A stretch of DNA of 10,558 bases from an uncultured Micrococcaceae bacterium. GTDB lineage: Bacteria; Actinomycetota; Actinomycetes; Actinomycetales; Micrococcaceae. Below are positions 1 to 10,558 of this stretch, piece by piece; position 1 is the stretch's first letter; the number at the start of each line of letters is the position of its first letter. The DNA lies in NCBI GenBank assembly GCA_937896705.1, contig CALBOC010000353.1, positions 1 through 10,558 of the forward strand. Reading direction: 5' to 3'. The notes below the pieces were generated by a model, which was given only the letters and a program-made list of their open reading frames with translations, was not told the origin of the DNA and searched no databases. The translations under genes were made by a program, and so were the position numbers.

Positions 1-499
1 CTGCGGTCACCGTGACAGTAGCCTGCTCGGCCTTGGCAATCTTGTCGTCATCGGTTTCACGGTCATCTTCAGTAATTTCGCCGCCTGCAGTTACATTGAG
101 TTCCTGAAGTTCGCTATCAACCACGATTTCGACCTCATATCGCTCAGTGTTATCATCATCGCGATCAATACTGACGATGAAGCCGTCGGCATATTCTGCC
201 TCGACCGCCGTCACGACATCAAACACCGGATCGCTCCCCATCGGCTCGGCATCATCGGCCTGCGTAGTAGCGTCGTCAGGAGAAGCCCCCTCGGTCGTGG
301 TGGCATCGTCAGTGGCCTCTTGCTGGTCATCGCCAGTGGTGCCTTGTGTTTCATTCGGGTCGACTGTTTCGACTTCCTGATCTGGCGGCTGCTGGTCGCC
401 AGCATCGTCGGTAGTGCAGGCGCTCAGCATGCCCAGAGCGGCTACTCCAGCCAGTCCGATGAATAGCTTCGAGCGGCGAGCGTTGATGTTCGTCAGCAT
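1..499 (-). CDS. PepSY-like domain lipoprotein, C-terminus beyond window
   Basis: This is a predicted exported lipoprotein of unknown function; 166 codons are visible and the reading frame stays open at the left edge. The start is the ATG at 499, with TAGGAG upstream (AGGAG is the complement of 504-508) four bases away. Residues 8-28 form a lipoprotein signal peptide: basic ARRSK, a hydrophobic run, then lipobox LSAC with lipidation at Cys28. Residues 29-90 are an acidic Asp/Glu/Gln/Thr linker. Residues about 92-150 form a PepSY-like alpha-beta module (VVTAVEAEY, then a YEVEIV strand, an LQELNV strand and a GGEIT turn). A second module appears to begin at 153 (IAKAEQATVTV) and is cut by the edge. 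PepSY domains are small extracytoplasmic modules proposed to act in peptidase inhibition or envelope sensing; which applies here is unknown. The gene diverges from dnaG. The same two-module sequence pattern occurs in the tail of S2 (rpsB) at the other end of the window. Confidence 0.85.
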   Translation of the reverse strand, partial: MLTNINARRSKLFIGLAGVAALGMLSACTTDDAGDQQPPDQEVETVDPNETQGTTGDDQQEATDDATTTEGASPDDATTQADDAEPMGSDPVFDVVTAVEAEYADGFIVSIDRDDDNTERYEVEIVVDSELQELNVTAGGEITEDDRETDDDKIAKAEQATVTVTA

Positions 500-538
500 A
501 AAACTCCTAGCCTTCCTTGAGATTTTCATTTCATGTTA

Positions 539-2700: not shown

Positions 2701-3009
2701 TCAGAGAGCCCAGGAAACGGTGTTAGCGGCTAGTCCAAGAGACGTGGCGTTGCTTTCGCCTGCGCCTTCTACATCAGTGCCTTCCTCAGCGGGATCCTCT
2801 TGCATCGGATCCTCCGCTGGGTCCTGGTTCGGGTCTTCTGCTGGATCCTCCATGTTTGGATCCTGAGCCGGATCCTCTTGCATGCCTGGCTCTGCAGGCT
2901 CTTCTTCTGGGCTGGTGTCCTCCGCACAAGCGGTAAACAGCGCAAGTGCGGCAACTCCTGCGAAACCGGCGTACAGCTTGGAACGTTTAGAATTCGTTAT
3001 CTTAAACAC
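2701..3009 (-). CDS. Small lipoprotein with acidic Asp-Pro repeat
   Basis: This is a predicted 102-residue lipoprotein of unknown function. I chose the GTG at 3009 because AAGGAG (complement of 3019-3024) lies nine bases upstream and because this start gives a compact signal peptide; the longer frame to 3090 adds a non-signal-like N-terminus. Residues 8-28 (KRSKLY, hydrophobic AGFAGVAALAL, lipobox FTAC, Cys28) closely match the signal peptide of the lipoprotein at 1-499, so the two are probably paralogues. After Cys28 the protein is nearly all low-complexity and acidic, with EDPA, QDPN and EDPM units between residues 36 and 75, then a short neutral tail ending SWAL. There is no PepSY-like domain. 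It may be a surface spacer-type protein or a truncated sister copy. It converges on dnaG with 94 nt between the stop codons and no clear terminator. Confidence 0.75.
   Translation of the reverse strand: MFKITNSKRSKLYAGFAGVAALALFTACAEDTSPEEEPAEPGMQEDPAQDPNMEDPAEDPNQDPAEDPMQEDPAEEGTDVEGAGESNATSLGLAANTVSWAL
2792..2875. repeat. GGATCC-centred short repeats inside the Asp-Pro lipoprotein
   Basis: GGATCC occurs five times, at 2792, 2807, 2843, 2858 and 2870. The spacings of 15, 36, 15 and 12 bp are all multiples of three. The repeats encode the EDP units of the lipoprotein, so copy number could change without breaking the frame. Confidence 0.8.
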
Positions 3010-9035: not shown

Positions 9036-9130
9036 ACCGTCCCACCCAGCCGCTGTGGAAAGAGTATGCTATTGAATGTCTGCACATGCATATCGCCCGG
9101 TACTTCAACAATGAAGGTGCCGGTGAAGGT

Positions 9131-9137
9131 GAAGGAG
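9131..9137 (+). promoter_or_regulatory. Shine-Dalgarno site fixing the rpsB start
   Basis: GAAGGAG lies five bases before the ATG at 9143 and selects this start over the in-frame ATG at 9086, whose extra 19 residues are not S2-like. Upstream, TATGCT at 9065-9070 might be a -10, but no convincing -35 is present. Confidence 0.8.
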
Positions 9138-9142
9138 CAATC

Positions 9143-10309
9143 ATGGCTGTAGTAACGATGCGTGAACTATTAGAATCTGGTGCGCACTTTGGGCACCAGA
9201 CCAGTCGGTGGAATCCGAAGATGAAGCGTTTTATTTTCACCGAACGCAACGGTATTTACATCATCGATTTGCAACAATCCCTGTCGTTGATCGACCAGGC
9301 GTACGAATTCGTCAAAGAGACCGTCGCACACGGTGGCAGCATTCTCTTTGCCGGGACGAAAAAACAAGCGCAGGAATCCATCGCAGAACAGGCCACGCGA
9401 GTCGGGATGCCATACGTCAACCACCGCTGGTTGGGCGGTATGCTGACTAACTTTGCTACAGTGTCGAAACGCGTCGATCGAATGAAAGAACTTGAAGAGA
9501 TCGACTTCGAAGACGTTGCCGGTTCTGGCCACACGAAAAAAGAGCTGCTCCTGTTGGAGCGTGAACTCCGTAAGCTGCAAGCCAGTCTGGGTGGGATTCG
9601 CGATATGAGTCGAACTCCGTCTGCGCTCTGGGTGGTAGATACGGAAAAGGAACACCTAGCCGTTGACGAGGCGAACAAACTGGGCATCCCGGTCATCGCT
9701 ATCCTCGATACCAATGCCAACCCAGACCAAGTGACCTACCCAATCCCGGGCAATGACGACTCCATTCGTTCCGTCACGCTGTTGACCCGTGTAATCGCGG
9801 ACGCCGTGGCCGAAGGCTTGATGGCTCGACACGGTCAAGGCGACAACGCAGAGCCCATGGCCGAATGGGAACGAGAGCTCCTGCAAACCGATGCCACCAG
9901 CGGTTCAACCGATGCCCCTGATAAGCCGGTGCTGTCCGTACTGCAAGCTGTTGAGTCCGCGTATCCGAATAGCATCCTGGTTGAAGTCGAACAGGAAGAT
10001 GACGGCGCATCCTACGAGGTGGAGCTCGTTCATGAGCAACAGCTCTACGAACTAGATGTCACTCCCGCCGGTGAGATTTCGGTGGATGAGGTCGACTCAG
10101 ACGATGAAGATATTCAGCGCGCATCGCAGGTGACCGTCTCGCTCCGAGATGCCCTGCGTCAGGCTTTAACCCAGCATCAGGACGCCACGCTGGACTCGAT
10201 CGAACTCGAAGAAAAAGACGGTGCGCTGTACTGGGAAGTCGAATTGAAAGATACCCAAGGCCAAGACATTGAACTGAATATCCCGGCCGCAGGTGAAAAT
10301 TCCAAATAA
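9143..10309 (+). CDS. rpsB: 30S ribosomal protein S2 with tandem PepSY-like C-terminal extension
   Basis: S2 is an essential small-subunit protein that binds late on the solvent side of the 30S head/body junction. Residues 1-230 are a normal S2 core: [13 protein letters not shown], a GIYIIDLQ strand, GTKKQAQE, the [11 protein letters not shown] motif, [16 protein letters not shown] and the [14 protein letters not shown] helix. Residues 237-248 ([12 protein letters not shown]) still resemble the usual Micrococcales S2 tail. Instead of then stopping or continuing as low-complexity Ala/Glu, the protein runs on to residue 388. Residues about 263-329 and 330-385 are two acidic PepSY-like repeats, each with a helix, a Y-x-VEL strand pair and a final GE turn (SYEVEL; YWEVEL). 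The first repeat and the start of the second align with the lipoprotein at 1-499. The frame is continuous, with no stop or frameshift at the junction. It starts at ATG 9143. The usual downstream partner tsf does not begin within the following 249 nt. Confidence 0.95.
9926..10300 (+). repeat. Two tandem PepSY-like modules within rpsB
   Basis: These are protein-level repeats in the S2 tail: module 1 at residues about 263-329 and module 2 at about 330-385. Each contains a Y-x-VEL core followed by an EL strand and GE. By contrast, the S2 linker at 249-262 is short and rich in Ser, Thr, Asp and Pro. The modules are divergent, so they are not a recent DNA duplication. Confidence 0.65.
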
Positions 10310-10363: not shown

Positions 10364-10538
10364 AGACCTGAGGTCTCGGGCGTGTGTGAAGCGTCACACG
10401 GAGGTAAAATTCGTGTGCGCTATAGGGTATGCTTGACAAAGCAATTGTGTGCCCACCTTGGTGGGCGCCTAATTGACTACGCGCGTGAGTGTGCAACCCC
10501 AGCGTTGCAGTTACACCCGTCGGTCCAGAGGAATCTGG
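10364..10538. other. Hairpin-rich region downstream of rpsB
   Basis: Five inverted repeats lie in 175 nt. AGACC/GGTCT at 10364-10376 has a TGA loop. GTGTGA/TCACAC at 10384-10399 has an AGCG loop. A long imperfect stem at 10442-10475 has outer arms CAATT/AATTG and inner arms GCCCAC/GTGGGC around a CTTG loop. TGCAAC/GTTGCA is at 10492-10509, and CCAGA/TCTGG at 10525-10538 has a GGAA loop. No U-tract follows any of them, so no clear rpsB terminator is seen. A TTGACA at 10433-10438 lacks a -10 partner. The region could be a leader RNA for the next gene. No known riboswitch class is recognised. Confidence 0.35.
10413..10436 (+). CDS. Possible 7-codon leader ORF
   Basis: GGAGG at 10400-10404 is an excellent Shine-Dalgarno site placed eight bases before a GTG that opens the tiny frame MCAIGYA, ending TGA at 10434-10436. 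It sits directly after the GTGTGA/TCACAC hairpin. It overlaps a second 15-codon frame, 10429-10476 (MLDKAIVCPPWWAPN), which carries tandem Trp codons inside the long hairpin. Either could be a leader peptide or chance; evidence is limited to the ribosome-binding site and geometry. Confidence 0.2.
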   Translation: MCAIGYA

Positions 10539-10558
10539 TCAGCGGTGCTTCCCGAACT

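Follow-up and report, generated by a model that had tools for sequence, protein, structure and literature searches.

Ribosomal protein uS2 is located on the back of the 30S subunit, at the hinge between head and body, and in E. coli it is required for bS1 binding (PMC10931766). In the 100S dimer of Lactococcus lactis, the C-terminal domain of long HPF docks mainly on uS2 (PMC5620043). Two described families resemble the protein studied here in being extended. NF051451 of NCBIfam (S2 sunset domain variant) is likewise from actinobacteria and adds a domain at the C-terminus of uS2; its cut-off was passed in 3 of 394 sampled genomes of the class, at a threshold that would hide any second, ordinary S2 there. 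NF008966/PRK12311 (long 30S ribosomal protein S2; model of 334 positions) is also longer than the usual uS2. With both listed in NCBIfam, the S2 tail has been known to bear an added domain before. E. coli likewise has a pair of genes for a single ribosomal protein, bL31A and bL31B, with possible ribosome heterogeneity (PMC7363858). Finally, the tandem-PepSY lipoproteins of Enteractinococcus, Micrococcus, and Nesterenkonia possess the same two-repeat domain as the tail described below, and are its nearest relatives outside S2 (~50% identity in Enteractinococcus).

Here we describe rpsB1, a gene in a 10,558-nucleotide stretch of DNA from an uncultured Micrococcaceae bacterium (the window), whose product, S2-PepSY, joins a uS2 core to a tandem PepSY tail. 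The reading that we prefer, and to which we would give about as much belief as doubt, is that rpsB1 encodes an alternative uS2 with a tail from a lipoprotein-type PepSY protein, present in some 30S subunits, where the tail forms an acidic knob that changes docking on the 30S back.

The fused frame and the predicted fold of its tail

The rpsB1 frame runs on the forward strand from an ATG at 9143 to a TAA at 10307-10309, that is, 388 codons without interruption, as the earlier note had read it, and the computed mass of the protein is 43.0 kDa. AAGGAG at 9132-9137 (+) reads as its ribosome-binding site. Residues 1-247 (9143-9883, +) form the uS2 core, which exceeded the cut-offs of both PF00318 (Ribosomal_S2; E 1.7e-94, 315.5 bits against 26.1 for the whole protein, residues 9-225) and TIGR01011 (334.5 bits against 76.3). 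It is followed by a short linker (residues 248-260, 9884-9922, +), the first PepSY repeat (approximately residues 261-319, 9923-10099, +), and the second repeat with the C-terminus (residues 320-388, 10100-10306, +). The core does end in EWERELL, at residue 247, but the earlier description of this motif as the usual tail needs refining: ordinary actinobacterial S2 continues past it into a low-complexity Ala/Glu/Pro-rich tail in 80 of 80 loci (read by eye, best 80 of 584). Thus, the PepSY pair, which makes up the last ~125 residues (~14 kDa), replaces a tail. The net charge of the window tail is -28, and that of the ordinary S2 tails in five two-gene genomes is -11 to -16.

The PepSY profile PF03413 (cut-off 24 bits) recognized the whole protein (E 5.5e-8, 33.4 bits, two stretches) and the tail alone (37.4 bits), bearing out the family assignment made from the letters. 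Taken one by one, repeat 1 was under the cut-off (17.2 bits) and repeat 2 just over it (25.0 bits). PF11396 (PepSY_like) scored 14.8 bits with the protein and 18.7 with the tail, below its cut-off of 28.3. Structure prediction also agreed with the expectation of a folded tail: AlphaFold2, run on the tail alone with 14 relatives, gave two helix-plus-strands units with a mean pLDDT of 88.8 and pTM of 0.82, and ten-residue blocks from tail residues 21-130 reached pLDDT 95-98. In the whole-protein model the tail was again confident (blocks of 84-94 for residues 261-380), with helix and strands in each repeat, and the linker had pLDDT <50. The pTM of this model was 0.44, so the position of the tail on S2 is predicted without confidence, which counts against the knob that we propose. 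A Foldseek search with the tail gave a single match below 0.001, the lipoprotein CD1622 (4exr, TMq 0.46); the rest were weak and included unrelated sliding clamps. With the full model, S2 and ribosome entries filled the 50 VIA-align matches listed, and the absence of PepSY rows among them is therefore uninformative. The best sequence match among solved structures was 9vy3 (propeptide, PepSY and peptidase M4), with E 5.2e-4 for the tail and 1.6e-9 for profile A3.

We searched residues 245-388 against ~5.8 billion proteins, and 35 proteins (clusters) of 472 candidates matched at E<=0.001. Both S2 and PepSY labels were found on 32 of the 35, and one was named Enteractinococcus fodinae. The window protein shared 70-99% identity with 22 others over the whole length and 42-98% with 14 others over the tail, and the hydrophobic core of the tail was kept across the latter range. 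P0006 diverges within repeat 2 and ends early; P0035 and P0036 have the tail without the PepSY label. The core of P0036 is almost that of an ordinary-type S2 and its PepSY tail is divergent, which would reflect either a chimeric contig of 1.5 kb or gene conversion between the two rpsB copies. Four genomes (G096, G112, G157, and G076) have the whole fused frame open, and in G169 a contig end interrupts it. An assembly slip or frameshift artefact was ruled out by the 35 matching clusters together with the full frame in four genomes. Public records give the E. fodinae tail as a separate 126-residue PepSY protein (P0037); in G096 the frame is open through S2. In a family-wide search, 102 of 395 genomes matched the tail at E<=0.001, and linkage of the match to S2 was read in the 16 genomes searched with the whole protein and in nine genomes of one genus.

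An ordinary rpsB gene behind the fusion in relatives, and its leader

We searched 16 genomes with the whole protein: S2-PepSY occurred together with an ordinary S2 in five of them (G096, G112, G157, G076, and G169), and the other 11 contained one S2. The rpsB1 gene lies just upstream of the ordinary rpsB2, with a gap of 313-347 bases in the four genomes where both genes are complete, and the ordinary S2 of the five two-gene genomes ends in an acidic tail of 41-49 residues. The frame after the S2 genes in three scanned genomes presumably encodes EF-Ts. In the E. coprophilus-like genome G112, the pair was found with equal scores on two contigs (C2:714000-719827 and C3:1-18000), which are probably overlapping contig ends. 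The genus of G096 (the Enteractinococcus genus group) is represented by nine genomes, five with the pair and four with the ordinary gene only; across an order-wide sample of 198 genomes, one S2 was found in 194, two in one (G096), and none was detected in three. Since an ordinary S2 follows in all five readable fusion genomes, the S2-PepSY of the window is probably a paralogue that leaves the essential S2 untouched. A second gene, as expected for paralogous ribosomal proteins, was present in five of the nine genus genomes, and in the window's genome its presence is deduced from the leader (below). Because four of the nine do without it, rpsB1 is dispensable, a point against our preferred reading. 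The earlier note was right about a folded tandem-PepSY extension on a ribosomal protein; what could not be seen in the window is that an ordinary S2 gene follows in five genomes and that rpsB1 itself lacks the leader.

To compare the cores, we defined near-invariant columns as those at least 97.5% identical among 80 actinobacterial S2 sequences (n=146). The window S2-PepSY keeps 140 of these. Altered columns numbered 5-12 in 12 S2-PepSY sequences, 3 in P0036, and 3 in the ordinary copies of the genus, and the change R21S marks 12 of 13 S2-PepSY sequences. Because only 5-12 of the 146 columns are altered (3 in P0036), the S2-PepSY core still looks like a working uS2. The departure from more columns than in ordinary S2 (5-12 versus 3) counts against the preferred reading.

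Between the window and G096, dN/dS was 0.014 for the core (dS 0.87) and 0.089 for the PepSY part (dS 1.0). The other pairs, which were more saturated, gave 0.014-0.066 for the core (9 of 10 computable) and 0.068-0.243 for PepSY (6 of 10); ordinary S2 gave 0.011-0.036 (10 of 10). By these ratios, both halves of S2-PepSY are under purifying selection. This bears on the idea that rpsB1 is a tolerated gain, an extra S2 interchangeable with the ordinary one, in which the PepSY pair is merely another acidic tail. That ordinary tails are acidic too and that four of nine genus genomes lack rpsB1 would fit such an idea, but we consider it unlikely: the PepSY codons are constrained in the computable pairs, the hydrophobic core of the tail persists down to 42% identity, and P0036 retains the tail although its core resembles the ordinary copy.

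The end of the window (10466-10558, +) matched covariance model R1 with 85.8 bits (E 4.1e-22) and represents the 5' part of a structured rpsB2 leader RNA clipped by the window end. R1 was built from nine genus leaders, with the window outside the training set; as its construction implies, seven training loci each matched once, and there was no match before rpsB1 in the five sequences spanning that stretch. A conserved leader lies between the two S2 genes and also precedes the lone S2 gene in the four fusion-less species. Outside the genus, weak matches lay in position before rpsB in Nesterenkonia (L002; 30.9 bits, E 1e-6) and Garicola (L004; 23.5 bits, E 1e-4); L138, L135, and L139 gave marginal matches, and the other loci gave none or none of significance (32 sources, 17 matches at E<=1). 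RNAalifold folded the leader with 52 pairs, and in 8 of these both partners are changed in one or more sequences (an uncontrolled count). Rfam, applied to the window and three rpsB loci, identified no family at the leader; it returned two tRNAs and three sub-gathering matches, none of them in the rpsB loci. We regard the rpsB leader (10427-10558 in the window) as a candidate for a new ribosomal-protein leader type. Because the window end matches the leader that precedes ordinary rpsB, the window's own genome very probably carries an ordinary rpsB2 starting ~90 bases past the window end; rpsB2 itself is not in the window, which weighs against the preferred reading.

A promoter-like GTATGCT is situated at 9064-9070 (+), 79 bases before the rpsB1 ATG, and another, of the expected rpsB2, at 10427-10433 (+). 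The motif GTA[TA]GCT recurs 79-90 bases before rpsB1 in five of five sequences and 230-231 bases before rpsB2 in four of four relatives. A sigma-70 scan found no promoter site, which is a point against expression as we propose it. Codon adaptation of the S2-PepSY core was 0.64, 0.58, and 0.55 in three genomes, above most neighbouring frames and below the ordinary S2 (0.68 and 0.71 in two genomes); the reference was a crude ORF set including some antisense frames, and the ordinary S2 of G157 was left out owing to an overlapping antisense frame.

The position of rpsB1 directly upstream of a conserved structured leader carried only by rpsB2 raises the question of whether S2-PepSY acts mainly off the ribosome, with its S2 part binding this leader and tuning the supply of S2 and EF-Ts. 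In E. coli, the rpsB-tsf mRNA is repressed by excess uS2 (PMC10931766). We think such a regulator quite unlikely, as the leader matches no Rfam family, its response to S2 is purely putative, and the PepSY part is left unexplained.

Descent of the gene and of its tail

In a tree of S2 cores, both copies and the four single-copy species formed one group (support 100/98), in which a branch of modest support (81/76) had S2-PepSY on one side. The tree thus places the rpsB duplication inside the Enteractinococcus genus group. An unrooted DnaG tree, from which G019 was left out (no DnaG in its region), separated a side with the fusion throughout (the window, G096, G169, G112, and G157) from a side with the fusion in G076 only (G024, G142, G076, G052, and G127). 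Either the duplication is old and was followed by losses, or the gene was transferred later. In the four fusion-less species, the upstream reading frames for M23 and a glycosyltransferase are present, but a search within 1.5 kb revealed nothing convincing of rpsB1 (one match of 20% identity, E 0.15).

A tree of 13 S2 tails and 32 of the 111 matches from the search that returned the lipoproteins grouped the S2 tails with lipoproteins of the same genus (support 99/94). The window has such a gene at 2-529 (-), divergent from dnaG: an open frame of 176 aa that encodes the N-terminal part of a tandem-PepSY lipoprotein, clipped by the window start, with 40% identity to the S2 tail over 89 residues. 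The link to exported proteins made in the earlier note was well founded, the tail being related to a family on exported lipoproteins with a copy in the window. Outside S2, a PepSY match was present in all nine genus genomes; in the three scanned, it reads as a lipoprotein. In two fusion-less species this lipoprotein match holds one stop codon each (G142:C19:7087-7488 and G127:C130:3371-3769), and it may run past the gene end there.

A second lipoprotein frame, at 2701-3009 (-), is convergent with dnaG and encodes 102 residues from a GTG start preceded by AAGGAG. It lacks PepSY and contains an acidic EDPA-type repeat; its N-terminus matches PepSY lipoproteins, and G096 has a counterpart ORF at the corresponding position. 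The position is occupied by a PepSY lipoprotein in Micrococcus lylae (L081), adjoining tRNA-Asn. We considered this frame as a donor whose PepSY part had moved to S2 and ruled it out, as a PepSY lipoprotein remains at 2-529. Because that gene persists and G096 has both lipoprotein frames, one on either side of dnaG, the tail was copied and not moved. Such an exchange could plausibly have taken place at the C-terminal end of S2, since Ala/Glu/Pro-rich tails end all 80 loci read (best 80 of 584).

Proposed roles of S2-PepSY and comparison with known systems

With the fusion, its fold, the gene pair in relatives, the leader, the selection, and the presence of the long-HPF domain established by computation, we propose the following course for the alternative uS2. 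Within the genus group to which Enteractinococcus belongs, rpsB would have been duplicated in tandem, producing the extra uS2 gene rpsB1. Its low-complexity acidic tail would then have been swapped for a tandem-PepSY part copied from a same-genus lipoprotein, a gene of the donor type lying ~8.6 kb from rpsB1, beside dnaG. The structured leader would have been kept by rpsB2, with rpsB1 expressed outside it, and S2-PepSY would serve as an alternative uS2 in a fraction of the 30S subunits. In these, the PepSY pair would form a folded, strongly acidic knob of ~14 kDa on the 30S back, where in other bacteria bS1 and the dimerisation domain of long HPF touch uS2. The C-terminal domain of long HPF is encoded in nine of nine genus genomes. 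Most likely, the knob would alter docking, by hindering or reshaping HPF-driven 100S pairing or by recruiting a partner, much as the PepSY protein DbfQ engages its sensor kinase (PMC12714742). More tentatively, and with somewhat more doubt than belief, the genus may run two classes of ribosomes, in which PepSY-headed 30S subunits control hibernation pairing or tether the ribosome to a partner, as a condition-dependent switch built from a borrowed domain of exported type, alongside ribosomes of the standard class.

We consider it very unlikely that the tail is instead a cytoplasmic metal-binding or protease-related module, on or off the ribosome: in favour, metal binding and protease inhibition have been associated with PepSY domains and DbfQ, a PepSY protein, interacts with the sensor kinase DbfS (PMC12714742), the tail is strongly acidic, and 9vy3 is its best solved-structure match; against, its lipoprotein relatives act outside the membrane, and their ligand may be absent from the cytoplasm.

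If the extra S2 is built in as an alternative uS2, these cells would have two kinds of ribosome. The protein concerned is single in 194 of 198 genomes of the order and is located where bS1 and hibernation factors act, and here a domain of exported type has entered the translation machinery. The natural coexistence of an ordinary S2 with one that has a folded head offers a ready system to ask about specialised ribosomes in bacteria, and isolates exist, as the tail matches name E. fodinae, E. coprophilus, and E. helveticum.

A search of open-licence PMC literature found neither S2 with PepSY nor paired S2 genes in this genus described in any paper; as far as this search can tell, the PepSY pair on S2 and its coexistence with an ordinary S2 are new. 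The sunset variant NF051451 differs in carrying another domain: S2-PepSY scored 468.8 bits against a cut-off of 710, in the S2 part only and up to profile position 278 of 382. Against NF008966, it scored 294.3 bits with a cut-off of 526, and the match was again confined to the S2 part. Unlike S2-PepSY, the tandem-PepSY lipoproteins have a signal peptide and a lipobox and are without an S2 part. Compared with bL31A/bL31B, the duplicated protein here is uS2, and one copy has acquired a folded domain whose relatives include an exported protein.
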